Shown here: positions 1,873-23,208 of the stretch, in pieces
How the letters are laid out: each line of letters opens with the position of its first letter
Position numbering within the stretch: position 1 is the stretch's first letter
Notes under the pieces: model-generated
What the model saw: only the letters and a program-made list of their open reading frames with translations
What the model was told of the DNA's origin: nothing
Database searches by the model: none
Program-made: the position numbers and the translations under genes
Virus record (IMG/VR): IMGVR_UViG_3300049736_000070
Location: 1 to 25,224 of that record
Origin: a virus
DNA length: 25,224 bases
Strand: one strand, 5' to 3'

Positions 1873-2157
1873 TCAGCAGTTCCAACGGCGTCTTGCAGCC
1901 TTTCCTCTTTCGCCTGTCCAACTTCTACTTCTTGCACAAAATGATTTGCGTCTTTTTGCAGCTTTGCTGCCAGGCTTCAGTTTACTTGGTGGTGTTGTCA
2001 CAGCAGTCTGCAATTTAGAGCCTGGATTCTGTCGGCGATATTTCTCGACACCCTTTTTGGTTAATCCTGCTCCCTGACTAACTGGTTTTTTATGACCACC
2101 CTTGACGGTCATACCCTCCATACCTTTTTCTTCTACGAATTGAGCAAACGTCTTCAT
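1873..2157 (-). CDS. Small basic protein with capsid-targeting-like N-terminus
   Basis: The 94-aa protein starts at an ATG that overlaps the stop of the kinase gene (ATGA), so translation is probably coupled. Its first residues, MKTFAQFVEEKG, match the T4 internal-protein capsid-targeting sequence (MKTYQEFIAE, cut after Glu10) in register: aromatic 4 and 7, aliphatic 8, Glu 10. The remainder (TVKGGHKKP, GAGLTKKGVEKYRR, SKAAKRRKSFCARSRSW) is Lys/Arg rich. It belongs to a small family common in marine T4-like phages that I associate, from memory, with DUF6321. There are only two Cys, one in SFCARS and one at the very end. By analogy it may be a DNA-associated internal head protein. The reading frame is secure; the role is inferred. 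Confidence 0.8.
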   Translation of the reverse strand: MKTFAQFVEEKGMEGMTVKGGHKKPVSQGAGLTKKGVEKYRRQNPGSKLQTAVTTPPSKLKPGSKAAKRRKSFCARSRSWTGERGKAARRRWNC

Positions 2158-4523
2158 TTCTTTTTCACCTTAAACTTCTTCGCCTTCTGTTTAGAAGCAG
2201 CTGCCTTTGCTCTAGCGGGATTATACTTCTTCGCCTTCATGGGTTTCTTGTTTCTTGATGTCAGACGTTTCAATTCGTTTCGTCTCACAACTGGTGCCAA
2301 CCTAGTTGCCATTCTAGCAACCAGACCAGAGAATCTTTTCGCCATCGCTTCGATTCGTGCCTTCTCTGCGGGTGGAAGTGATTGGATATCTCTACCCCGA
2401 GCGATTCTTGCCTTGATCATGTTTCTCGCACCACGAGTAGCACGGCGTTTCAATCGGCCTGGATCAGATGCTCGTCTTGCAGCACGCATACGGGCAACCT
2501 TCAACTTCTGGCGGTTTCTCCTAGCGGCAAACCGTCTTTTCATTCTACCTTGAATTGACAAGACTTCTGTTATTTGTATCTCATCGTGGATATCATCTTC
2601 ATCCTCGACATCAATATACTCTAACTCTTCCTCATCATACATCCCTAAGTCAACCAGATCATCAAAATTCATATTGTCGATTTGGATTTCCATATCAGCA
2701 ACATCTTGCGGAGTGAAGATAGAATCTACGTCCATCTCCAATACTTCTATTTCCGGTTTTTCTTCTTCTTTTCGATCCTCAACAATCTTTTTTGCTTTGT
2801 AGTGATACTTACTGTTATTCTTATTTTTCTTTGTGGTCTCGCCGGGCTCGCCTGGGGTCAGTGCTTTTAAGTATTCGGTTCCTTCTGGTCTGCCCCACTC
2901 ATACCTACTGATCTGAATGTCTTCGGTAACCATCTTAGCAAGAGTTCTGGGATCAACCTGACTCATACCACGAGTGCTTCTTTGAATTTGTTGTGCGTAG
3001 TATTCTGGTGAATGTCTCAGTCTACCACCACCCTCTTTCTTTTTTCTGTCCAACAATTTGAGCAATGCCTTCTTTGCACTATCATATTTTGCTTTGTGAA
3101 CAGTCTTAGCAAGAGCAGGCAACATATATCGTGGCATATCTTCTTTCACATCGGTCTTCACCATGACAGGTTTGCCACCTTTACCTGACCGATCTGCAAC
3201 AGGGTCTTTTCTGCGTTTGCGTCTGGCAGAAGTTGCTCTGTCATCTTTGGACATACTGTGAGCCTTTGAACGAGGCATACACTTGGGTTTACCTTCTCCA
3301 GGCTCTCTTGCACAATCTCCTTTGATTTCACCATCAGTGCCGACACGAACCCAATCACCTTTCGGGCCTTTACCAAACCACTTTCTTAAATCTTCTGAGG
3401 TGAAAGAGAGTTCTTCTTCTGCGGATAGTTTTGCGGCGATGGCCATCTCTCTGCGTTTCTTCTTGGACTTACCCTTAAATTGGGGTGCATCACTCTTATA
3501 GAAATCTTTGATAACATCCCCCATATCCATCTTCTTGATGTCTTCATCTACTGTGTAGCCAGGCACTTTGATAGTTTTAACTGTAGTCTTTATCTTCGGT
3601 TGTTTCTTATCCGCTTTCCAATCACCAGACTTCCAAGAACCTTTTTTAACATTTCCGTCCTTGTCAAAATGTCTCTTGAGATGTGGCGGCAATTCTGCCT
3701 CTGTCACATCATCTTCTTTGACACAATTAGGAACCATTCGGTTTCCCTTCTTCTTCATGCCCTTTTGTTTCCAACCTACCCAGCATGCCTCATCAATGTA
3801 GTTCTCATCGTCAGGCACAGATTCTCTGGTAATGTTTCTCTTTTGTTTTTCATCCTTGATCCAAGCTTTTGCTTGTCGGGAAACAGGCGGTTTCCTTGTC
3901 CACGCCATTATTTTCCTGTATGTCCCAAGAATAGCATTTTCATAGTCAGAACCATCGGAGTTGTCAACGATAAACATATCTTGACGAAACAAGTTTTGAA
4001 ACCGTCCAATATTTTTTTGTACTGACTTCCACATTTGGCCAACTTGCACTGACCCAAGAGTTCTGTCTCTCTTTTCATCTCTGGAAACAGCAGTTTCAAG
4101 ATCAGTATTCACAAAAATCATCGCAGTTTCATATCCTAATTTTTCTATTTCGATTTTCTGCTTCTTGATTTTGTCGTAGTTTTTACCAGTTCCATCAATA
4201 ACCAAACCAAGTCTACCTGACAAAAAATTAGACTTACGTTGAGCAGTGATGTATGTGGCACGATCCCTCAGTTTTTGTCCCTTGAGTGAAAAAATATTTT
4301 CGGGAGCCATGGGATTTATTTTATCTTTGAATTCTTTTTTGAGAGCGTTCTCAAATGCCGTGTCAGAATTGACAACCTTGTATCCGAGAGTAGTTAGGGC
4401 AGTTTTTCCAACAATAAAAGATTTACCAGAACCAGGCCCGCCGGCGAGGAAAACTGCCTTGAAGATAGCAGGGTCGTTGACTCCCTCCTCAAGAGGGACA
4501 AAATCTGTAAATTTCTTTTCCAT
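2154..4523 (-). CDS. P-loop kinase (PNK/zeta-like) fused to a long basic mosaic tail, 789 aa
   Basis: Residues 22-205 form a P-loop kinase domain. GGPGSGKS (28-35) is Walker A, NSD at 52-54 fits the acidic base position of polynucleotide-kinase/zeta-toxin kinases, LVIDGTG (107-113) is a Walker-B-like strand, and RDEKRDR (148-154) is an Arg-rich lid. The tail is a mosaic: EACWVGWKQKG...MVPNC (245-267), a CAREPGE...KPKC block (404-415), a very acidic stretch (about 587-650) and an Arg/Lys-rich end (658-789). I recognise several of these blocks as separate pieces in other marine T4-like phages. The N-terminus FTDFVPLEEG loosely resembles a capsid-targeting sequence ending in a possible LEE/G prohead-protease site. 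Its late promoter is built on the upstream stop codon. Frame and kinase fold are clear; substrate unknown. Confidence 0.85.
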   Translation of the reverse strand: MEKKFTDFVPLEEGVNDPAIFKAVFLAGGPGSGKSFIVGKTALTTLGYKVVNSDTAFENALKKEFKDKINPMAPENIFSLKGQKLRDRATYITAQRKSNFLSGRLGLVIDGTGKNYDKIKKQKIEIEKLGYETAMIFVNTDLETAVSRDEKRDRTLGSVQVGQMWKSVQKNIGRFQNLFRQDMFIVDNSDGSDYENAILGTYRKIMAWTRKPPVSRQAKAWIKDEKQKRNITRESVPDDENYIDEACWVGWKQKGMKKKGNRMVPNCVKEDDVTEAELPPHLKRHFDKDGNVKKGSWKSGDWKADKKQPKIKTTVKTIKVPGYTVDEDIKKMDMGDVIKDFYKSDAPQFKGKSKKKRREMAIAAKLSAEEELSFTSEDLRKWFGKGPKGDWVRVGTDGEIKGDCAREPGEGKPKCMPRSKAHSMSKDDRATSARRKRRKDPVADRSGKGGKPVMVKTDVKEDMPRYMLPALAKTVHKAKYDSAKKALLKLLDRKKKEGGGRLRHSPEYYAQQIQRSTRGMSQVDPRTLAKMVTEDIQISRYEWGRPEGTEYLKALTPGEPGETTKKNKNNSKYHYKAKKIVEDRKEEEKPEIEVLEMDVDSIFTPQDVADMEIQIDNMNFDDLVDLGMYDEEELEYIDVEDEDDIHDEIQITEVLSIQGRMKRRFAARRNRQKLKVARMRAARRASDPGRLKRRATRGARNMIKARIARGRDIQSLPPAEKARIEAMAKRFSGLVARMATRLAPVVRRNELKRLTSRNKKPMKAKKYNPARAKAAASKQKAKKFKVKKK

Positions 4524-4527
4524 ACGC

Positions 4528-5109
4528 CTATTTATAAAAAGTTTGAAAAAGAGTAACGGATAGTTTTGGTTGTCTTCTCATTATTTTATTGTATGCTTTA
4601 TCTTCTTTGTGCAATTCCTCCATCGACCAAAAGGGAGTATATTTGGTAGACTTCAAATAATTGCCATCCGAATCAAACATTCTCTCCTTGACACCAGAAT
4701 AATTTGCGTTGGTCGCTACGGTGTAGTGACCGCGATTTGGAACATAATCAGAGAACTTATAAAAATCTATGACAAAATAATCTTCAAATCCCGAATCATA
4801 CAATTCACTCAGATATGGCCTCGAATGAGTCCTAGCGAATGGCCTATCTACTTGTGTGAAATTTTTGGGGTCGGTGATCCACCGAGAGATATTCATCGCG
4901 GATTGAAGTCTATCCCAAGGATTCCTAACCACAATGGCCTTAATCTCGGCATTGGAGTTCTTAAATTTGTCTAACCAATTCTCCGGTGATAAGTCTGGAT
5001 GATTTTTCGGTAGTGTGTGAGCTTTGATACCAAATGAATTTGCCATACTGGTATGGCCACATCTGAGATTGCATACTATGCAAGATTTCTCGGTATCGTG
5101 AAAAAACAC
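4528..5109 (-). CDS. Sulfotransferase-family protein, 193 aa, GTG start
   Basis: Sulfotransferases move a sulfuryl group from PAPS to a sugar or other hydroxyl. Near the N-terminus, CNLRCGHTSM sits where the 5'-phosphosulfate-binding loop lies in the family (usual form KxxxTS). IVVRNPWDRLQSAM (about 59-72) fits the 3'-phosphate-binding strand and helix (RNPxxRxxS). The rest is aromatic-rich, as in carbohydrate sulfotransferases. The only start that keeps the N-terminal loop is GTG at 5109, one base after the upstream stop; no strong ribosome site precedes it, so translation may depend on coupling. The last codons (TTT TAT AAA TAG) double as the late promoter of the next gene. The family is likely; the target (host surface glycan or virion) is unknown. 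Confidence 0.75.
   Translation of the reverse strand: MFFHDTEKSCIVCNLRCGHTSMANSFGIKAHTLPKNHPDLSPENWLDKFKNSNAEIKAIVVRNPWDRLQSAMNISRWITDPKNFTQVDRPFARTHSRPYLSELYDSGFEDYFVIDFYKFSDYVPNRGHYTVATNANYSGVKERMFDSDGNYLKSTKYTPFWSMEELHKEDKAYNKIMRRQPKLSVTLFQTFYK
4529..4536 (-). promoter_or_regulatory. T4-type late promoter overlapping a stop codon
   Basis: Exact TATAAATA on the minus strand, inside the final codons of the sulfotransferase gene. The next ATG (4523) begins 6 positions after the last A. By the T4 spacing, where the box is centred about 10 bp from +1, transcription would begin at or next to this ATG. Confidence 0.7.
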
Positions 5110-5110
5110 A

Positions 5111-5329
5111 TCAAAAAATTCTTATCAATTTGGATATCGCGTCAACAACCTTTGCAGCCATAATCTTCATAGACTCTTCATTGATGTCTTCCCTGATCGT
5201 TTCGACATCTGTAAAATCTTGAACGAGTTCTTCGTACTCGGCCTGATTGATCATCCCCCCGTCCAAAAGATTATTGAGTTCTTCTACCTTTTGTGCGTAG
5301 TGGGAAATTATATCTTCTTCACTTATCAT
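5111..5329 (-). CDS. Small acidic helical protein, 72 aa
   Basis: The ATG at 5329 overlaps the lipoprotein stop (ATGA), and the gene ends just before the sulfotransferase start. The protein is acidic and predicted to be mostly helical (EEDIISHYAQKVEELNNLLD, then QAEYEELVQDF, then a C-terminal helix ending in RIF). The N-terminal half, with its DGGMINQAEYEELV turn, recalls the short two-helix SHOCT-type arrangement, but this is only a resemblance. There is no signal peptide and no Cys. Function unknown; support comes from coupling and tight packing. Confidence 0.65.
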   Translation of the reverse strand: MISEEDIISHYAQKVEELNNLLDGGMINQAEYEELVQDFTDVETIREDINEESMKIMAAKVVDAISKLIRIF

Positions 5330-5697
5330 TTCATTCTACTCCCAGAAACTTGCAATGCTTCTTCAACTATACTTGAGATGTTACCCCATTTGATCCTGCA
5401 ATATGCGGGAGAGGGGTCTTCCCTGTTCCTCAGTTCTTCTACCAGTTCATTAATCTTTGTGTAGATTCTCTGATTTGTTTCGTTCATGGTGTGTTCCGCA
5501 TACTTATCAAGAAACGCAGATTCAAACCATGCTACATTTATATAGTCAACATCGCAGGCCTTGGTATTTTCGGCAATCACACCCAATCTAACCAAAGAAC
5601 TGTACTCAGCATTATCAAATTTATTTGGGATCAAATTTGAAACCGAACATGATGTGAGTATGAATAACGAGAGTACAACCCCAATGGTTTTATTCAT
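5326..5697 (-). CDS. Small lipoprotein next to lysozyme
   Basis: The start is ATG 5697, 8 bases inside the end of the lysozyme gene; a TTG one codon upstream is less likely. The N-terminus is a lipoprotein signal: MNKT, a hydrophobic stretch, then the lipobox LTSC with the lipidated Cys at 17. Two further Cys (about 48 and 100) could form a disulfide in the periplasm. The mature part of roughly 105 residues is helical and charged, with no Pro-rich stretch, so it does not look like a classical Rz1-type o-spanin. Adjacency to lysozyme suggests a lysis or superinfection-exclusion role, but that is inference from context. The lipoprotein call is firm. Confidence 0.8.
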   Translation of the reverse strand: MNKTIGVVLSLFILTSCSVSNLIPNKFDNAEYSSLVRLGVIAENTKACDVDYINVAWFESAFLDKYAEHTMNETNQRIYTKINELVEELRNREDPSPAYCRIKWGNISSIVEEALQVSGSRMK

Positions 5698-6142
5698 CAA
5701 TATTCTCCAAACGTGACATTAATCTTTCTGCTCTATTGGTAACCTGTTTATACCACCTAGAGTCCCGGCCTTCCATAGCGGCAATCTTCCAATCCCCATC
5801 GGTGATTGCTCTGTTCATTTTCTTAAATTGACTCAATCTGGGCCTCCCCATATTGAACATCATATTAACCAAGATTTGCTGGACTTGTTCTGGTAAACAT
5901 CCAAATTCCCGTTCTCCGTATAGATGCTCACACTCTCGTTCGGCAGTGTCAAGGTCTCTCTCAAAACACGACCTGACTCTTTCTTCGTCAACTGGAGTTC
6001 CAATTGGTTTTCCGTATTCCTCGTCACTTTCTTTGATAAGATGACCGACTCCAAAAGTTGGGTATCCGAGGTGGTCGTTATAGATGACATATTCTACTCC
6101 CTCATCAATTTTTAGTTGTTCGTATACTTCTTCTCTATTCAT
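5690..6142 (-). CDS. e: T4-type lysozyme (endolysin, GH24), 150 aa
   Basis: The enzyme cleaves the MurNAc-GlcNAc bond of peptidoglycan to release progeny. The catalytic triad has T4 spacing: Glu14 (KIDEGVEY), Asp23 (YNDHLGYP) and Thr29 (PTFGVGHL), equivalent to T4 Glu11, Asp20 and Thr26. The C-terminal lobe carries the family signature around QQILVNMMFNMG and GRDSRWYKQVTNRAERL. At 150 aa it is slightly shorter than the 164-aa T4 enzyme. There is no signal peptide, so it needs a holin to reach the wall. The start overlaps the stop of the NMNAT-like gene by one base (TAATG). Unlike the spanin-like and holin-candidate genes at 11822-12909, it sits in the distal late cluster. High certainty. Confidence 0.95.
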   Translation of the reverse strand: MNREEVYEQLKIDEGVEYVIYNDHLGYPTFGVGHLIKESDEEYGKPIGTPVDEERVRSCFERDLDTAERECEHLYGEREFGCLPEQVQQILVNMMFNMGRPRLSQFKKMNRAITDGDWKIAAMEGRDSRWYKQVTNRAERLMSRLENIDE

Positions 6143-6780
6143 TAAAGTGTTCCTATCTGTTCTTTTAAGAACGCAGCGAAAGAATATCTTACCTGACCTT
6201 CTTTCAACTTCATTCCCTTTCTAGTTGCGTCAAAAAGTTTCTTTGCTTCTGCATGTGATGTTTTGTGATGAAGACCCGACTTGAACGATTTTAAATCATT
6301 GTTAGATGCGTGAGCCCTCATCTTAGTACCACTGATACCAGCGACACCCGTAGCATCTGGATCACGGGCGCCGGCAGAAACTACTTTCAAACTTTTGAAT
6401 TTGTAGTATCCGTGTGGGCCCTTCTTTCCGTTGTACTTATTGATTGTTTTATGAAATTCGTTGACACGATCAGACCCAGCAACCATAGTCACATGAGTGT
6501 GTCCCTCTTTGTGCATCTTTGATAGGTGTGCAAAGACATGCGGGTGAGATGAAGACGAACCTTCAAACTTACCTTGCGGGTGAACGTGTTTGAGATATCT
6601 TATTTTCTGATCAGAATTAAGAGGGTTCTTGTGTTTATCCTGAGAATGACTTACAATAACTCTGTGATCAGCTCCTCTCTTCTTTGCTTCGGAATGAACC
6701 TTGTCCACCAATTTACTGTGACCAGCAGTGGGTGGATTCATCCTACCGAAAGCGAATACCATGTGTTTTTCTTTGCTCAT
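6142..6780 (-). CDS. NMNAT/cytidylyltransferase-like nucleotidyltransferase, 212 aa
   Basis: A member of the HxGH nucleotidyltransferase superfamily, which joins NMP to phosphorylated substrates such as NMN, pantetheine-P or glycerol-P. AFGRMNPPTAGH near the N-terminus is the first signature (TAGH replaces HxGH). GISGTKMRAHA (about residue 145) is the ISxTxxR nucleotide-binding signature, closest to NadR/NMNAT-type enzymes. ATG 6780 is chosen because it forms an ATGA overlap with the upstream stop and has GGGA before it; an ATG 9 bases further up has too short a ribosome spacing. The C-terminus (SFAAFLKEQ) repeats the F-x-x-F-L-x-E pattern seen in capsid-targeting sequences, preceded by LKEG. 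It is coupled to a ligase-like gene, suggesting linked nucleotide chemistry. Family secure; substrate unknown. Confidence 0.85.
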   Translation of the reverse strand: MSKEKHMVFAFGRMNPPTAGHSKLVDKVHSEAKKRGADHRVIVSHSQDKHKNPLNSDQKIRYLKHVHPQGKFEGSSSSHPHVFAHLSKMHKEGHTHVTMVAGSDRVNEFHKTINKYNGKKGPHGYYKFKSLKVVSAGARDPDATGVAGISGTKMRAHASNNDLKSFKSGLHHKTSHAEAKKLFDATRKGMKLKEGQVRYSFAAFLKEQIGTL

Positions 6781-8036
6781 CTGTCCCATGCCTTGATTGC
6801 GGTGAAGTTATTGTAACTGAACTCCATCCTGTCTACGAGTTTTACCGCATTTCCACCAACTCTGTCAATGGCAACATATCCTTCTGGATTGGTAACCTTG
6901 AATCCTTGTTTAGTGCGAACAAAAGTATCCATCAACTGTTTGATAGTATTTAGTTTCCTCACAATAATCATTTTCGCATCTACCAGTGCGTTCTGGAAAG
7001 TGATTACGTTGATCAACAGATTGCGGTATCTTTTAATTTCTCTGAGAGTTTCATTTTTTCTCCTCTCAGTTTCTTTGATTGCCTTTTCTGATTTTAATTT
7101 ACCTATTGCGACATCAAATTTATCTGACACCCACTTTTCATATCCCGCCGCGTGACTGCGGGGATTGGTAATCTTTTCTCCCACTCTCACCTTTGAGTTG
7201 TTGTAGGTCTTGAGTGTAGCACCAGAAGTCTTACTGTTATTTGCAAGACTTTCCTGCAACCTCAACATTGAGGTCAACTCTGATTTACCGATCCTTTGAA
7301 AAACTCTGCCCGCAGTGGCCAAGTGTGCGGTCACCTGAGCGGTCTCAGCCTTTGTAAAAGTAGCAGTACCAGATTCATCTCTATATGTCGCGTCATCCAT
7401 CCAAACATTTTTATTTTTTCTAAGTCCGCTAAGGTTGGCACCAAAAGATGCAGACATTTTTTCAAGACTAGAGCCTGTATATGTGGTGTGCCAAACGATG
7501 CCAATTTTCGCAGACCGGATTTGATTATCAAGATCAGAGTATCTAGGAACCGCGTATACAATAGTGTTCGGTTGGAAGGTAGTGTAATTTTGTCCATCTA
7601 TTTTATCCGTTTCAAGAGAACCAGCAGTGAACATTAAGTCGCCCTGTAGAACACCTTTTATACCTAATTTACTAAATTCTTCCAGCGCGACAGTGAATGG
7701 ATACTTTAAAGCCTGTGGTAATTTTGAGTCATCTTGAATTTCTTTCTTCGTCTTATATAGCAATGGGGACTTGTTGAATACCGACTTCTTGGCGACAAAG
7801 AACTTACCATCAGACGGATCGACACCCGCAAATAGGGCAGGGGCGCCATCCCACTTTACTGTCATGTTGATTGATGATCGGGAATTACCAGCAAGCATGT
7901 CCCGCAATGACTGTAAAAAATTGATTGCGCCACGAGCACCACCGATTCCGAAATTAAGTATTTCGTCCTCTAGGTGTTCCAGATGCAGATTCTTACCTTG
8001 TGCATCTTCATTTAAATATGACGCGAAACCAAACAT
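6777..8036 (-). CDS. Ligase-like nucleotidyltransferase candidate with capsid-targeting-like start, 419 aa
   Basis: I recognise this as a conserved but undescribed protein of marine T4-like phages (DUF6267-like, from memory). Counting from ATG 8036, KWDGAP at about 61-66 looks like the KxDG adenylation motif I of DNA/RNA ligases and capping enzymes. GVLQGDLMFT (about 128) could be motif III, PEGYVAI (about 384) motif IV and NAVKLV (about 396) motif V. A Lys/Glu-rich helical insert (about 310-345) separates them. The first ten residues, MFGFASYLNE, match the T4 capsid-targeting register (aromatic 4 and 7, aliphatic 8, Glu 10). ATG 8036 is preferred over TTG 8045 for this reason and for the GAG six bases before it. 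A late promoter lies about 30 bases upstream. Fold assignment is inference from motifs. Confidence 0.8.
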   Translation of the reverse strand: MFGFASYLNEDAQGKNLHLEHLEDEILNFGIGGARGAINFLQSLRDMLAGNSRSSINMTVKWDGAPALFAGVDPSDGKFFVAKKSVFNKSPLLYKTKKEIQDDSKLPQALKYPFTVALEEFSKLGIKGVLQGDLMFTAGSLETDKIDGQNYTTFQPNTIVYAVPRYSDLDNQIRSAKIGIVWHTTYTGSSLEKMSASFGANLSGLRKNKNVWMDDATYRDESGTATFTKAETAQVTAHLATAGRVFQRIGKSELTSMLRLQESLANNSKTSGATLKTYNNSKVRVGEKITNPRSHAAGYEKWVSDKFDVAIGKLKSEKAIKETERRKNETLREIKRYRNLLINVITFQNALVDAKMIIVRKLNTIKQLMDTFVRTKQGFKVTNPEGYVAIDRVGGNAVKLVDRMEFSYNNFTAIKAWDR

Positions 8037-8065
8037 TTTACTCAAAAACCGTTTTGTGTTAGTAG

Positions 8066-8073
8066 TATTTATA
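8066..8073 (-). promoter_or_regulatory. T4-type late promoter
   Basis: Exact TATAAATA on the minus strand, in the short gap before the ligase-like gene. The predicted leader is about 24 bases. It probably drives the run from the ligase-like gene to the sulfotransferase. Confidence 0.8.
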
Positions 8074-9579: not shown

Positions 9580-9882
9580 TCAAAAGTCTTTGGGGCGATG
9601 TTTTTGCACCAAATTTCTTACAGCCACGGATTTGGAATCCTTCGCTCCGTAACTGTTTGCAAGGGCAGAGGTTGGATTTGCCTCTGATATTTTAGATAGG
9701 ACTTCCTTGAACCCACCATCCGGTCTAGTCCGGTCACCTGTGCCTCCAATGAGGCCCGGCGCACCATTGACTAGCCGTTCAATATGGGGATTATCTTTCA
9801 GCATATCATCTGCTGCGGATATCCCCATAAAGTCTTCCCAAACTTCGCCTGTATTCTTGTTATGAAACTTATAGGTAGGCAT
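9580..9882 (-). CDS. FmdB-like N-terminus small protein, 100 aa
   Basis: The ATG at 9882 overlaps the end of the preceding gene by 14 bases. The start MPTYKFHNKNTGEVWEDFM resembles FmdB-type zinc-ribbon proteins (MPTYEYxCxxC), but the zinc cysteines are absent. The C-terminal half has ISEANPTSALANSYG and a basic end, VRNLVQKHRPKDF. I recall this overall form as a conserved small protein of marine T4-like phages. It is last in the run of small genes behind the promoter at 11153-11181. Function unknown; existence well supported by the recognisable family form. Confidence 0.8.
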   Translation of the reverse strand: MPTYKFHNKNTGEVWEDFMGISAADDMLKDNPHIERLVNGAPGLIGGTGDRTRPDGGFKEVLSKISEANPTSALANSYGAKDSKSVAVRNLVQKHRPKDF

Positions 9883-10075
9883 TCTGTTCTACTTTCGGTA
9901 AACCTAAACAAACTCGAGCCTGATCCCTGACCTCAGCAGATACGGCATGGCCATACATCTCTGGGTTCAGAAGATTATTCACAAATTTGAATGTGTTGTA
10001 GATGATCGCTGCGTCATTCGGTGACAATTTTTCCACCATGAACGTAACGTCTTCCATTGTTAATTTATCGCTCAT
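9869..10075 (-). CDS. Small hypothetical protein, 68 aa
   Basis: The start is ATG 10075, with AGGAG six bases upstream; a TTG one codon earlier is less likely. It overlaps the next gene by 14 bases. The protein is acidic and helical (DVTFMVEKLSPNDAAIIYNTFKF), with a single Cys near the end (ARVCLGLP). No motif is recognised. As part of a run of small genes behind a strong sigma70-type promoter, an early host-directed role is plausible but unproven. Confidence 0.7.
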   Translation of the reverse strand: MSDKLTMEDVTFMVEKLSPNDAAIIYNTFKFVNNLLNPEMYGHAVSAEVRDQARVCLGLPKVEQNAYL

Positions 10076-10084
10076 CAAAATCTC

Positions 10085-10273
10085 CTACACTTCAACTTCG
10101 ACAAAACTTCGGCGGCGTTTGTCGAACTGTTTCGATGGTTTTGAGAACATCAAAATCTCAGATGTTCCCTGTTTGATATATCCAACGTTTTGATTTTTGT
10201 CATTAAATATATATGTGTGGTTCGGAGTGCCTGGGGCCTCAGTCCACTTCGTTACTTCTTTCAAGAACTTCAT
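10085..10273 (-). CDS. Small beta-rich protein, 62 aa
   Basis: The start is taken at ATG 10273 (MKFLKEVTKWTEAPGTPNHT), with GGAA upstream. The frame is open back to 10336, but the extra 21 residues look random. The body alternates hydrophobic and polar residues (TYIFNDKNQNVGYIKQGTSE, then ILMFSKP) and ends in FDKRRRSFVEVEV, suggesting a small beta sheet. I recall similar 60-70-residue proteins in marine T4-like phages, without known function. It overlaps the preceding small gene by 35 bases in another frame. Confidence 0.7.
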   Translation of the reverse strand: MKFLKEVTKWTEAPGTPNHTYIFNDKNQNVGYIKQGTSEILMFSKPSKQFDKRRRSFVEVEV

Positions 10274-10427
10274 TATGCCATTTCCAAATTGCAGTTTCAA
10301 TTTCTTCTGGGCGCCCGTTGGTGATATATTCTCCATTTGACCGAGCGATCAGATAATGATCCAGAAGCAGGAAAAGCCCTCTGCGGGCTTCCTGATTCAA
10401 TAATTTTTGTTTACTTCTTTTTTTCAA
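10239..10427 (-). CDS. Possible small protein with TTG start, 62 aa
   Basis: The frame has no internal Met, so it would start at TTG 10427, inside the end of the 59-aa gene, with GGAAG about 9 bases before it. The predicted protein has a basic start, a hydrophobic LFLLLDHYLIARS helix and an acidic/aromatic end (PEEIETAIWKWHNEVLER), which reads like a genuine protein. Against it: the non-ATG start, a terminator-like hairpin across codons 13-19 and overlaps at both ends. It fills what would otherwise be a gap of about 140 bases. Moderate doubt. Confidence 0.5.
   Translation of the reverse strand: MKKRSKQKLLNQEARRGLFLLLDHYLIARSNGEYITNGRPEEIETAIWKWHNEVLERSNEVD
10372..10390 (-). terminator. Weak terminator-like hairpin
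   Basis: On the minus strand AAGCCC and GGGCTT form a 6-bp stem with a 5-base loop followed by TTTT (partly within the stem end). It lies 21 bases after the stop of the 59-aa gene, and could reduce transcription into the rest of the small-gene run. It falls within the questionable 62-aa frame. Confidence 0.35.
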
Positions 10428-10590
10428 TTTCTAAGACTTCCTCAGCGTAAACGTGCATGATCTCCTGATCACTCAACCCAATTTTACGCAACGAATTTAT
10501 GAAACGTGTTTGATCACCCCCATCAAGGGCAGATTCAACCACACTCAAAACTGACTCACCAGTTTCCCCATAAGCATACCAAGGTGTCAT
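10411..10590 (-). CDS. Small acidic protein, 59 aa
   Basis: A 59-codon frame from ATG 10590 to TAA 10411. The start overlaps the stop of the 49-aa gene (ATGA), like the pair before it, so the three genes form a translationally coupled chain. The sequence starts MTPWYAYGETGESVLSVVES, continues with a helix around RFINSLRKIGLSDQEIMHVY and ends in a charged EEVLEIEKKK tail. No Cys and no signal. No family recognised. Good start context and coupling support it despite its size. Confidence 0.72.
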   Translation of the reverse strand: MTPWYAYGETGESVLSVVESALDGGDQTRFINSLRKIGLSDQEIMHVYAEEVLEIEKKK

Positions 10591-10736
10591 GATTGTGTCA
10601 ACACCTTGTGTGCCTCTATGGCACGATTGGGGAACATCTCGGGCTTAGTGGCGATGGCATTCATCACCCAATCCCATGACTTGCCAAGGAACTCGGCCTC
10701 TTGGAAGATAATACGTCCTGCTTTAGTAAGTGTCAT
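10587..10736 (-). CDS. Small protein, 49 aa
   Basis: A 49-codon frame from ATG 10736 (ATGA overlap with the end of the 127-129-aa gene) to TGA 10587 (ATGA overlap with the next start). The protein reads MTLTKAGRIIFQEAEFLGKS, then WDWVMNAIATKPEMFPNRAI, a compact helical and aromatic sequence. No motif recognised. Two-sided coupling in a promoter-led run of small genes makes it likely to be translated. Confidence 0.7.
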   Translation of the reverse strand: MTLTKAGRIIFQEAEFLGKSWDWVMNAIATKPEMFPNRAIEAHKVLTQS

Positions 10737-11116
10737 GCTGCTTCTCCAACTTTAGAACTCAATAACTGAGTGAAACCCACGTTGTCAACCATGTGGACAT
10801 CACCATACTCGCCAACAAGAATGTCACCAACTGACATCGAATGTTGTGGGCCGTGTCGAGTGATACGCTCCTCAAAATGTTCCATACCATGCGGATTGTT
10901 GTGAACCATAAAGGCGTCCTCAAGATCACGCACGTTGATGTCAGCGACATGTTTGAAATACTGATCAAACTCTGACACCCAACCCTCAGAACCACCAGTG
11001 GTCAGCGCCATGTGCGCCTCAACACGGGGAAACTGTGCCATTGCTTCCGTCCAACCCATTTGGTTGACGGCATCGAACTCGGATCGGGGAACATCTAACT
11101 GAAACAATCGAAACAT
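10733..11116 (-). CDS. First gene of the early small-gene run, 127 aa
   Basis: The start is ATG 11116 or the in-frame TTG 11122. GAGAGG lies about 10 bases before the ATG and 4 before the TTG, so the choice is open. The protein has an acidic, aromatic N-terminal domain (FRLFQLDVPRSEFDAVNQMG), then a C-terminal block HSMSVGDILVGEYGDVHMVD. This block recalls an (R/H)SMSVGD(I/V) element that I have seen in plasmid and phage proteins of unknown function. It is the first gene after the strong promoter at 11153-11181 and is coupled by ATGA to the next gene. An early regulatory or host-takeover role is inference from position. Confidence 0.75.
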   Translation of the reverse strand: MFRLFQLDVPRSEFDAVNQMGWTEAMAQFPRVEAHMALTTGGSEGWVSEFDQYFKHVADINVRDLEDAFMVHNNPHGMEHFEERITRHGPQHSMSVGDILVGEYGDVHMVDNVGFTQLLSSKVGEAA

Positions 11117-11152
11117 AACCAAAAAACCTCTCTCAACTCAATTTACACATAT

Positions 11153-11181
11153 ATTATGACAGCTATTGAGGCAGATGTCAA
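11153..11181 (-). promoter_or_regulatory. Sigma70-type (early) promoter
   Basis: On the minus strand TTGACA (11176-11181), a 17-base spacer, then CATAAT (11153-11158). This is near consensus for the host housekeeping sigma factor. It lies 37 bases upstream of the first small gene, in a 167-base intergenic region otherwise A/T rich and without a gene. Confidence 0.85.
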
Positions 11182-11289
11182 GTCTTTTTTCGACTGTAAG
11201 TCATTGATTTTATTGAGAAAAGAAAAAAATTTGAAAAAATTCTAACCCCTTGATTTATAACGAAAAAAATATCTTTGAATATCAATCAC

Positions 11290-11820
11290 TTACGGGAGAA
11301 TCACACTATTTTCGGGGGAAATCAACTGTCCTGACTGATAAAGTTCAAAAAATTCCTCAATTGGCATGTCGAACCAGAGCTGAAGATTGTATCGGTCATA
11401 TTCGTTGTTCTTTACCCCATGTTTTACTTGAGTGTTGAACGCATAACAGGGAACCCATGGCAGATCAAATGTGCCAGCGTCCATGTACATGGTACAGGGA
11501 GCATATTTTTCGGTGCCTGCGGGGATCAGTGGAAAAACAACTGAGGTCATGCGGCGGTATTGTTCACCATCAACGTGAGGGACAACTTCTTGACCCGCCT
11601 TGATTCTCATGAGGGTAACTTCGGTAGGATCAGCGTGAAAAATACTTCTCACTTGAGCATCCATTTCTGCATCTCTGTCGGAGAGACGGCAGATACCTAG
11701 ATTAGTATCATCGCCTTCTGAGGTGTGATCGGTATAGACTGTGCCACGATCAGTAGCGAGGCCTCGCAAGACCAGCGCCTGTTCCGGATAGAGTCTTGTC
11801 GAGAGTTCAAAGTATAACAT
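11290..11820 (-). CDS. 2OG-Fe(II) oxygenase-like protein, 176 aa
   Basis: The start is ATG 11820, one base after the holin-candidate stop; upstream extension adds only unlikely sequence. VPHVDGE gives the iron-binding HxD (His82, Asp84). KHGVKNNEYDRYNLQLW gives the distal His (134) and the 2OG-binding Arg (143). The overall form recalls aspartyl/asparaginyl beta-hydroxylase-like or prolyl-4-hydroxylase-like oxygenases, which use 2-oxoglutarate and O2. The size (176 aa) fits a single jelly-roll core. All expected metal ligands are present, unlike the TauD-like protein at 20567. It is last in the late lysis operon, although oxygenases have no known lysis role. The substrate could be a protein, nucleotide or DNA. 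Confidence 0.75.
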   Translation of the reverse strand: MLYFELSTRLYPEQALVLRGLATDRGTVYTDHTSEGDDTNLGICRLSDRDAEMDAQVRSIFHADPTEVTLMRIKAGQEVVPHVDGEQYRRMTSVVFPLIPAGTEKYAPCTMYMDAGTFDLPWVPCYAFNTQVKHGVKNNEYDRYNLQLWFDMPIEEFFELYQSGQLISPENSVILP

Positions 11821-20566: not shown

Positions 20567-21376
20567 TCAGCGATGTCTCTCATACTTGAATTGTTCATAA
20601 TCAAATGCAATCCTATGTAATACTCGGTTAGACATATTATCAAACTCATGACGTTTGTGAATTGTCAACCACTGTTCACTGATAACTACGTCACCATCTT
20701 TCCAGTGATGATCGTATCGGTATTTATCTTGTTGAACGTGTTCTATCAACCAATCCATAGTCTGTTTGAAGTCATGTTCTTTGTACCCTACCATTCCGAA
20801 TATCTGTAGGAATGGAAAGTATAGTCCGGTTTTGCCACCATCATTTGTATGAACTAGTTTGAACGGTCTATCCGTAGCATGATGTTCTACAAAGAATTCA
20901 CTGTCAGAGTAGGAACCAGACTTGTATCCCAAGGTAATCTCTACTTCTTTCAATTCTGTTTTGATAATTTGTGGCAAATCCCTGTACGCCGCTTGCATGT
21001 CAATCCAACTGGTGCAACTACCTTCAGTGCCCTTGACACCATACAACCAAATTAGGGGCGCACGATCATAACTGCTTGCCTGATTGGCATGCCAATCCAG
21101 TGCAGAAGTATGACCAAACAATCCAGGCTCACCGTGATTATTTTTCTCACCAGTTACCCGAATGATATGATCATTGACCGCGATGTGTTCGCCCCTCTCG
21201 CCAGGCTCGTTCTGTAATCGTTGGCAGTTACCAATCAACTGGCAGAATTGAACCTCTTCATCGGGGGACAAATCTTGATTGGGAAAAACAACTACACCAT
21301 CATCCAGAAGCATTTCTGTGATATCAAATGCAGTTTCTTTATCTGCGGTCTTTAGATTTACATTACTTAATATCAA
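20567..21376 (-). CDS. TauD/2OG-Fe(II) dioxygenase-like protein with HAN in place of HxD, 269 aa
   Basis: The form is that of TauD-type 2OG dioxygenases: DDGVVVFPNQDLSPDEEVQF near the start, LDWHANQ (93-99) where TauD has WHxD, LIWLYGVKG after it, WKDGDVVISEQWLTIHKRHE with the distal His (240), and RVLHRIAF with the 2OG-binding Arg. The usual iron-ligand Asp is replaced by Asn98. There is no ATG at the right place: the first in-frame ATG would cut conserved sequence, so TTG 21376, inside the end of gp44, is the likely start. It is inserted between gp44 and gp62. I recall DWHAN-type relatives in marine phages, so this may be a distinct subfamily. Activity uncertain. Confidence 0.8.
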   Translation of the reverse strand: MILSNVNLKTADKETAFDITEMLLDDGVVVFPNQDLSPDEEVQFCQLIGNCQRLQNEPGERGEHIAVNDHIIRVTGEKNNHGEPGLFGHTSALDWHANQASSYDRAPLIWLYGVKGTEGSCTSWIDMQAAYRDLPQIIKTELKEVEITLGYKSGSYSDSEFFVEHHATDRPFKLVHTNDGGKTGLYFPFLQIFGMVGYKEHDFKQTMDWLIEHVQQDKYRYDHHWKDGDVVISEQWLTIHKRHEFDNMSNRVLHRIAFDYEQFKYERHR

Positions 21377-22292
21377 GGTTCGCCATCACATCTACTAAAC
21401 AAGCAGTCAAATTAATTTCCTGATCAGCAACAAACGCAGACTTGTATTGATAGTCTGCAACCAACAACACGAGATGAGCTGGGTTACTAACCTTGTCCAT
21501 GAGACTGTCATAGATTTTGCGATACAAACCTTGAGGATCAGTGTCAGCATTGTTTGCCACCCACTGTCGCATCTTCTTGAAGTCCTTGTCTTTGAGACTG
21601 TCAATCAGACCCTTGATGTTGACCTCAGCAATGTTACTGAGTATGCCCTCATCAATGACTCCAGACTTAGAGTATCGTTGCAACTCATTCAGAGTCCTAC
21701 GATAGTCTGGGAAATACTTCATCAACAGTTCAGCGACCACCTTCTCCGAATAGTCAATGTCATTCTCGCCGAGGATGTCAGTAAGTCTCTTCATGAACTT
21801 ACCCGCGATCAACTGTTTCTCATCCTTGTTGAGTTTGAAGTCGATCACCGCACAACGAGAGTGCAGTGGTTCAATGATTCGATTCTTGAAGTTACATGTG
21901 AAGATGAATCGGCAGTTAGCAGAGAACTCCTCAATGAATGCCCTGAGTGCAGGCTGCGTGGAGTTTGGATTCAGATAGTCTGCCTCGTCCAAGATCACAA
22001 CCTTAGTTTGCCCACCAAAACTTACCGTGGATGCAAAGTCTCTGATCTTTGTCCTGAGAACATCAATACCCGATTCATCGGAACCATTGATAAGGATGTG
22101 ATCAACACCAAGTTCATTGCACAGAGCCTTAGCAACAGTAGTCTTACCTGTACCAGCAGTGCCACATAGTAACATGTTGGGAATCTCACCCTGTTTGACG
22201 ATCTCTTCAAAACCACTTTTGATTCGATCAGGAAGCACACACTCCGCGATAGTAGCTGGACGATACTTTTCTACCCACAAAAACTCATTCAT
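21363..22292 (-). CDS. 44: Clamp loader large subunit, AAA+ ATPase (gp44), 309 aa
   Basis: ATP-driven subunit that opens gp45 and places it on primer-template DNA. The start is ATG 22292 (MNEFLWVEKYRPATIAECVL), overlapping the stop of the 57-aa gene (ATGA). WVEKYRP is the classic RFC-type box. Walker A is GTAGTGKT (44-51), Walker B is VVILDEADYL, and SRC (LHSRCAV) gives the arginine finger. The C-terminal collar domain is helical. Length is close to T4 gp44 (319). T4 RegA represses this gene; the ribosome region here is AGGAAAGAGAATCCGATG, A-rich but not tested. High certainty. Confidence 0.97.
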   Translation of the reverse strand: MNEFLWVEKYRPATIAECVLPDRIKSGFEEIVKQGEIPNMLLCGTAGTGKTTVAKALCNELGVDHILINGSDESGIDVLRTKIRDFASTVSFGGQTKVVILDEADYLNPNSTQPALRAFIEEFSANCRFIFTCNFKNRIIEPLHSRCAVIDFKLNKDEKQLIAGKFMKRLTDILGENDIDYSEKVVAELLMKYFPDYRRTLNELQRYSKSGVIDEGILSNIAEVNIKGLIDSLKDKDFKKMRQWVANNADTDPQGLYRKIYDSLMDKVSNPAHLVLLVADYQYKSAFVADQEINLTACLVDVMANLDIK

Positions 22293-22462
22293 CGGATTCT
22301 CTTTCCTAGAGTTTCTATCTGTTGTTGCCGTTTCTCGTTCCAAGTTTCCTCAGAACGCTCGACCATCTTCTTACCAGACTTGATCTTCTTTGGGAAGAAC
22401 TTAGCCTTTTCCAAGTTTGCCAGCGCAACCTTGCGCCGATCATTCACACCTTTCTGTTTCAT
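22289..22462 (-). CDS. Small basic protein before gp44, 57 aa
   Basis: A 57-codon frame from ATG 22462 to TGA 22289. Both ends are ATGA overlaps, with the cupin-fusion gene and with gp44, and GAGGAG lies five bases before the start. The protein is very basic (MKQKGVNDRRKVALANLEKA, then KFFPKKIKSGKKMVER) with a charged helical end (NEKRQQQIETLGKRIR). It looks nucleic-acid or ribosome binding. Its place ahead of the clamp loader may make its translation set that of gp44. No family known. Confidence 0.78.
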   Translation of the reverse strand: MKQKGVNDRRKVALANLEKAKFFPKKIKSGKKMVERSEETWNEKRQQQIETLGKRIR

Positions 22463-23208
22463 AGAATCTCCTCACGTTCAATGTCATCTTCTTCAAGATA
22501 ACTACCATACTGTATTTCTAAAATTTTCAAAGGTTCATCGCCAATATTTTTAACTTGATGCCAGTGATAAGGCATTATACTAAAGTAATCATGTTTTGTC
22601 AAGATATGATTTTCATAGTTTGACTCGTGGCCTATTGCATGTTTGACTAGTGCTTTGCCCTCAAGGATAAACCAGAACTCACCTCTTTCAAAATGTCTCT
22701 GGTATGATATTGCATCATTCGGTTCTACGTTAAGGAGTTTTACTTTTGCATCAGGATACTTGAGCAGTTGATCAAAGTATCCCCAATTTCTTTGTGTCCG
22801 GCAGATGTGAGAACTAGAGTTTGCCTTGTTGTCTCCTCCAACTCCAGTAGCTTGTTGAACGCCCTCAACACTCTCTGGAACATTAGAGCAGTTCCTATCC
22901 CCCCCGTTGGCAAAAATGTAAATACAATCTTTGCCGTAGTTTCGTTTACAATCAAGAATGAATTGTGTTGCGGTATCATCATCGTCATCGAATGGGACAA
23001 CGTGATCAACCATTTTTAGATTTGCCATGATGTCTAGTCTTTGCCAGAAGTCCATGAATGGTTTTCCTTTTTTGCGGAACAACCATTCATCACTATTCAG
23101 ACCGACCACCAGAACATCACCAAGTTTCTTGGCGTTTTCTAGTAAATTTATGTGGCCACCGTGTAGGGGATCAAAACCCCCCGAGACCATAACAATCTTT
23201 TTTACCAA
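22459..23208 (-). CDS. Nucleotidyltransferase-cupin fusion, 249 aa
   Basis: The N-terminal domain (1-130) is an HxGH nucleotidyltransferase: MVSGGFDPLHGGHINLLENA is the nucleotide-binding signature (as in heptose-1-P adenylyltransferase HldE/RfaE2 and glycerol-3-P cytidylyltransferase), and NSDEWLFRKKGKPFM fits the following strand. NKANSSSH (about 127-134) may be the second signature. The C-terminal domain (about 150-249) is a cupin like that of type II mannose-6-P isomerase/ManC: YQRHFERGEFWFILEGKALV, HWHQVKNIGDEPLKILEIQYG, YLEEDDIERE. The fusion could make and epimerise or isomerise an activated sugar. The start is TTG 23208, directly after the peroxiredoxin stop; ATG 23190 would cut into the first strand. 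Domains clear; reaction unknown. Confidence 0.85.
   Translation of the reverse strand: MVKKIVMVSGGFDPLHGGHINLLENAKKLGDVLVVGLNSDEWLFRKKGKPFMDFWQRLDIMANLKMVDHVVPFDDDDDTATQFILDCKRNYGKDCIYIFANGGDRNCSNVPESVEGVQQATGVGGDNKANSSSHICRTQRNWGYFDQLLKYPDAKVKLLNVEPNDAISYQRHFERGEFWFILEGKALVKHAIGHESNYENHILTKHDYFSIMPYHWHQVKNIGDEPLKILEIQYGSYLEEDDIEREEIL

Follow-up and report, generated by a model that had tools for sequence, protein, structure and literature searches.

Probable T4-type capsid-targeting tags at the N- or C-terminus of enzymes encoded by a 25-kb viral contig

The stretch of DNA analysed here (the window) is a 25.2-kb viral contig from a marine phage related to T4, positions 1 to 25,224 of IMG/VR record IMGVR_UViG_3300049736_000070. 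Four of its proteins carry, at one end, a short peptide resembling the capsid-targeting sequence of the T4 internal proteins: a ligase-like DUF6267 protein, a polynucleotide-kinase-like protein, an NMNAT-like protein and a small basic DUF6321 protein. Very probably, these peptides (tags) act as capsid-targeting propeptides of the T4 type. The fuller account, in which they load a set of enzymes into the prohead, gp21 trims them there and the enzymes are ejected with the DNA, is judged likely as a whole. Support came from the presence of the tags, their non-randomness, their selective conservation and their modularity (N-terminal, C-terminal or absent). Further support lay in the late-promoter motifs nearby, in the gp21 encoded by close relatives and in the tagged enzymes of relatives present in purified virions. 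The nearest named phage, by the DUF6267 protein (64.5% identity), was the T4-like Methylophilales phage Melnitz; identity to IMG/VR contigs was 63-100%.

All tagged genes concerned and all four tag sequences lie on the minus strand. Predicted cuts are marked with a slash. The DUF6267 protein (419 residues, 6777..8036; Pfam PF19782, E=1.7e-101) begins with the tag MFGFASYLNE/D (8007..8036), predicted to be cut after Glu10; residues 1-16 were disordered in a structure model. This open reading frame could be extended by three residues from a TTG at 8045, but relatives use the ATG as annotated. The DUF6321 protein (94 residues, 1873..2157; Pfam PF19846, E=1.2e-10) begins MKTFAQFVEE/K (2128..2157). 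Both N-termini have an aromatic residue at positions 4 and 7, an aliphatic residue at 8 and Glu at 10, fitting the T4 sequence exactly at these positions. The T4 reference, MKTYQEFIAE, was taken from the T4 record, where it begins IPII and IPIII. The position-for-position match claimed by the first-pass annotation was thus present in the sequences, as was the equally spaced SFAAFLKEQ that it reported at the C-terminus of the NMNAT-like protein (215 residues, 6142..6789; Pfam PF01467, CTP_transf_like; PHROG cytidyltransferase, E=1e-61). That tag comprises F204-E210, FAAFLKE/QIGTL (6160..6180). The fourth gene encodes a 789-residue protein (2154..4523) with an N-terminal P-loop, polynucleotide-kinase-like domain (Pfam AAA_33 and Zeta_toxin). 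The residues FTDFVPLEEG, given earlier as its start, were present; the true start is four residues earlier, giving MEKKFTDFVPLEE/G (4485..4523) with aromatics at 5 and 8. Tag placement is N-terminal in the DUF6321, DUF6267 and kinase proteins and C-terminal in the NMNAT-like protein of the window's clade.

The tagged genes had been placed in a late-expressed block, and a motif scan agreed. The T4-type late promoter motif TATAAATA occurs 7 times in the window, always on the coding strand, against 0.62 expected. Two copies stand just ahead of the DUF6267 gene (8066..8073, minus strand) and the kinase gene (4529..4536, minus strand). The latter abuts the kinase ATG (TATAAATAGGCGTATG, 4523-4536, minus strand), as it does in relatives L008, L014, L023 and L035; in many relatives, the in-frame residues upstream of the kinase suggest the same adjacency. 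Given T4 spacing, the late mRNA of the kinase would be almost leaderless.

Head machinery of the T4 type was found in the large relatives. All four (138-166 kb) encode gp23 and a gp21-type protease (Peptidase_S77), and gp21 is annotated in Melnitz. Candidate gp23 cut sites in these genomes were FSE/A, ITE/A, LNE/V and LSE/S. These share [L/I/F]-x-E with the tags, so the predicted tag cut site agrees with them. In three of the four, a tagged gene (MKTFRDFREE, MKTFKELREE, MKTFRQFQEE) lies between the portal gene and gp21, the place taken in T4 by the genes for core proteins 67 and 68. A 518-697-residue protein encoded in three genomes (G002 114295-116223, G003 9585-11678, G004 21257-22813) has an N-terminus in the style of scaffold protein gp22 (MSxExxIRExL, then LxE/A), possibly a second core-targeting tag.

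Published virion proteomes of cyanophage relatives were compared with these predictions. The S-CREM2 virion proteome (PMC10665884) lists a SAM hydrolase, a kinase, a cytidylyltransferase, a Cas9-like protein, ORF136, ORF13 and two large endolysins. The N-termini were MKDFDSFLEE (SAM hydrolase), (V)KRFDAFLTEE (kinase), MKNFSSFLTEA (cytidylyltransferase), MQTFSMFFSED (ORF136) and MKDLHSFLTEQ (ORF13); the endolysins are untagged. The virion-listed ORF137 has a C-terminal DUF6321 domain. The virion NMNAT of S-SCSM1 (PMC9602691) begins MKSFLQFLKEA and the virion cytidylyltransferase of S-SZBM1 (PMC9146016) begins MRFRQFIIEA, so that a tagged enzyme of the NMNAT family is listed in all three proteomes. 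Virions of S-SM1 also contain the cytidylyltransferase family (PMC3037559). The S-SZBM1 virion list lacks the DUF6267 protein of that phage, which is untagged. The expectation that tagged enzymes enter virions was therefore borne out for these relatives of the window phage. Homology between the S-CREM2 virion kinase (Pkinase/APH) and the window kinase (AAA_33/Zeta_toxin) was rejected; the Pfam families differ, and the S-CREM2 protein therefore supports the tag and not the window kinase.

Two side observations concern the same phages. The virion-detected, Cas9-like ORF12 of S-CREM2 (L131:7704-10313) has the tag-like sequence RFASFMAEA at residues 18-26 and the C-terminus TFRDFLN, and may be an injected nuclease. 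A conserved tagged protein of about 105 residues (S-SCSM1 44215-44535, S-SZBM1 122311-122628) begins MKTFKQFMSES or MKSFKSFLSES, followed by VNISGDFNGNLY. It is encoded among structural genes and appears in neither virion list.

Over the three proteomes, 6 of the 11 tagged genes were detected against 2.1 expected (p = 0.009), in favour of packaging. Several points weigh against packaging and ejection as the full account. The association with virion proteomes is modest and its p-value indicative, the tag pattern having been fixed after some of the data had been seen. The other five tagged genes were undetected; some of these are small, and for at least two the match looks accidental. The authors of the S-CREM2 and S-SCSM1 papers allow for co-purified contamination. 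The virion data come from cyanophage relatives, none from the window phage or Melnitz, and include no N-terminal peptides in the accessible text. No virion evidence was found in the accessible proteomes of relatives for the DUF6267 family or the window's kinase family. The gp21 gene is absent from the window, which is a genome fragment. Finally, the DUF6267 proteins of S-SZBM1, S-CAM9 and Syn1 are untagged and begin at the domain (MAKNTHLEHLED). A universal DUF6267 tag was therefore rejected, packaging of this protein is not universal, and, judging by these copies, the domain can do without a tag.

The strongest alternative, though an improbable one, is that the tag is a core-binding peptide on assembly helpers, which act in the prohead or infected cell and are degraded or lost before maturation like T4 gp68. 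The tagged gene at the gp67/68 position in three relatives would suit such helpers, as would the lack of virion data for the DUF6267 and window kinase families. Against this, tagged NMNATs, the SAM hydrolase and the S-CREM2 kinase remain in mature purified cyanophage virions, and the payload enzymes show no evident assembly role.

Homologue N-termini were aligned for the 4/7/8/10 pattern, which the first-pass annotation had exposed to refutation by free variation; no free variation was seen. In T4, residues 4 and 7 serve targeting and residues 8 and 10 serve processing, and a tag with Asp10 still targets while its cutting is blocked (PMC9026906). These are the positions retained in relatives, while the others vary. 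Among 30 unique DUF6267 N-termini, position 4 was F or L, position 7 mostly Y or F, position 8 L or I, and position 10 E without exception; positions 2, 3, 5, 6 and 9 accepted many residues. Shortened tags (e.g. MISFKQLNED) have one residue fewer and retain F, L and E. Distant DUF6267 proteins are still fully tagged (DLP_6, 42% identity, FTQFLAE/S; C48C1, 44% identity, FKNFITE/Q). All seven unique DUF6321 N-termini fit the pattern. Kinase tags occur in two layouts, plain (FKDFISE/G, in G004 and further relatives; FKEFISE/G) and spaced (FTDFVPLEE/G, FVDFLDPRPLEE/G), and most kinase N-termini retain F-x-x-F plus LEE or ISE. The spaced layout is that of T4 IPI (MKTFKEFTSTTTPVSTITE/A). The IPI cut site shown was assigned by us and agrees with PMC9026906, where propeptides of 10-19 residues are described.

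The NMNAT family was tagged at one or both ends in 44 of 48 unique complete genes. The tag was C-terminal only in 23, N-terminal only in 14, at both ends by a loose test in 7 and at neither end in 4; a C-terminal tag was thus present in 30 of the 48. Which end is tagged differs by clade: the window's clade has a C-terminal tag, others an N-terminal one. Where residues follow a C-terminal tag, its Glu was retained in 11 of 11 unique tails; where the tag ends the chain, 18 unique tails had E (5), G (7) or D (6), the tails being phylogenetically related and the retention of Glu a pattern, not an independent test. Full retention of Glu where the tail continues, with relaxation where the chain ends, fits the T4 genetics above, with targeting by 4 and 7, cutting by 8 and 10, and Asp10 tags still targeted. 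A C-terminal F-x-x-F-[L/M] is also found on the prohead protease of most of these phages (VFSSFLDRLSKI, AFHEFLQSL). The protease of SPN3US has a C-terminal propeptide for which a targeting role has been proposed (PMC7411985). S-SCSM1 gene 93 (L135:31626-31835) encodes a 69-residue protein, detected in the virion, whose C-terminus, RTFKEFLEYIE, is another C-terminal tag.

These patterns bear on a second alternative, in which the tag is a docking motif for another late product (tail, replisome or host protein) and its likeness to T4 is convergent. FxxFL-type short linear motifs serve many interactions. This alternative was nevertheless considered quite unlikely: the final Glu and the L/I two residues before it are conserved to the same degree as the aromatics, consistent with a protease site; C-terminal tags keep Glu in every continuing tail and have E, G or D where the chain ends; and the tags are linked to virion proteomes.

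The rarity of the tag was measured with the exact T4 register, M..[FYW]..[FYW][LIVMF].E, on 1,613 called genes from nine sequences (eight T4-like genomes and the window). The null was obtained by shuffling residues 2-14 of each N-terminus. The register was observed in 16 N-termini against 0.33 expected, an excess of about 50-fold. In a T4 control segment, IPII and IPIII were the sole matches among 65 genes. Four marine podoviruses gave none in 208 genes, a comparison of low power that is suggestive only (p = 0.14). Chance or compositional resemblance is given next to no weight: the motif is short and one or two matches are clearly accidental (e.g. an alternative start of the S-SCSM1 2OG-oxygenase), but the excess over shuffles, the homologue conservation and the specific T4 matches led to its rejection as the source of the tags.

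Under the capsid-targeting reading, the tagged proteins would be made late, and the aromatic pair at 4 and 7 (F-x-x-F/Y) would bind the prohead core and bring the attached protein in. The gp21 protease would then cut behind [L/I]-x-E, releasing the protein inside the head. Once DNA had been packaged, the released protein would be ejected alongside it when the virion next infected a cell, a step modelled on T4 only. The payload would comprise the ligase-like, polynucleotide-kinase-like, C-terminally tagged NMNAT-like and small basic DUF6321 proteins. Its purpose would probably be to equip the cell with NAD and nucleic-acid-repair functions ahead of phage gene expression, for example against host defences. 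For this phage we infer that the tags bind the core, that gp21 cuts them and that the proteins are ejected; the enzyme activities are likewise inferred. A more specific proposal, offered tentatively and with some doubt, is that in marine T4-like phages a tag interchangeable between the two ends preloads the head with a kit of repair and NAD enzymes that acts in the host before phage genes are switched on, for example undoing NAD-depleting or RNA-cutting defences, and that a C-terminal tag with no residues after it targets without being cleaved.

The closest known system is that of T4 IPI, IPII and IPIII. The window shares with it the 4/7/8/10 positions, the IPI-like spacer in the kinase, the late-promoter context and, in relatives, gp21. 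The T4 internal proteins are small basic inhibitors whereas the window payloads include enzymes of about 200-790 residues, one with a C-terminal tag, and their cutting and ejection are predicted. The T4 ADP-ribosyltransferase Alt is an enzyme that T4 loads into its head, where gp21 cuts it, and that is later ejected (PMC9026906). Alt is unrelated to the window enzymes, and its propeptide is described in that paper as 7 residues. Heads of phiKZ and SPN3US also contain ejected proteins with propeptides cut by the prohead protease, besides the C-terminal propeptide of the SPN3US protease (PMC7411985); the propeptides of SPN3US gp75, gp53 and gp54 have 124-130 residues and a cut motif merely reminiscent of that of T4 gp21. 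The virion NMNAT/cytidylyltransferases of S-SM1, S-SZBM1, S-SCSM1 and S-CREM2 belong to the same family as the window NMNAT-like protein, but the tags of the last three are N-terminal and that of the window protein is C-terminal. The accessible portions of the cyanophage virion papers give no targeting mechanism for NMNAT.

The novelty implied for enzymes inside the head was overstated, given the Alt precedent; the wide enzyme set and the C-terminal tag are new. What is new here is the breadth of the set, its spread over marine T4-like phages and the C-terminal tag, the mechanism being known from T4. An open-access literature search combining capsid targeting, prohead protease and cyanophage returned only a T4 head review, and accounts elsewhere are possible; none of the open-access papers found names DUF6267 or DUF6321. 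The tags offer a rule, readable from sequence, for predicting which proteins abundant marine viruses send into the host along with their DNA. They suggest a reason for the recurrence of NMNAT and other such enzymes in cyanophage virion proteomes, a recurrence that authors were unable to tell apart from contamination. Under this rule, many genes now called "hypothetical" or "metabolic" become candidate injected effectors.

The payload enzymes were characterised by motifs, profiles and structure models. In 33 DUF6267 homologues K61xDG64, E385G386xV388 and K399 were invariant, which we take to be motif I (KxDG), motif IV (EGxV) and the motif V lysine of the covalent nucleotidyltransferase (RNA/DNA ligase) superfamily. 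RNA/DNA ligases were the commonest among the best structural alignments of its model (mean predicted local distance difference test score 74), with a maximum Z of 6.5, below the firm range. Foldseek of the model against PDB gave nothing significant, and a sequence search of solved structures with the DUF6267, kinase and NMNAT proteins gave no convincing relatives. The DUF6267 protein is described here as RNA/DNA-ligase-like, a predicted activity. The kinase matched the PHROG polynucleotide kinase family weakly (E=4e-6). The NMNAT and DUF6267 proteins match separate parts of a single PHROG profile, phrog_455, which suggests that the two are fused in some phages. Outside the late block, the translation of 22459-23208 (minus strand) of the window is an apparent fusion of a cytidylyltransferase-like and a cupin-like domain.
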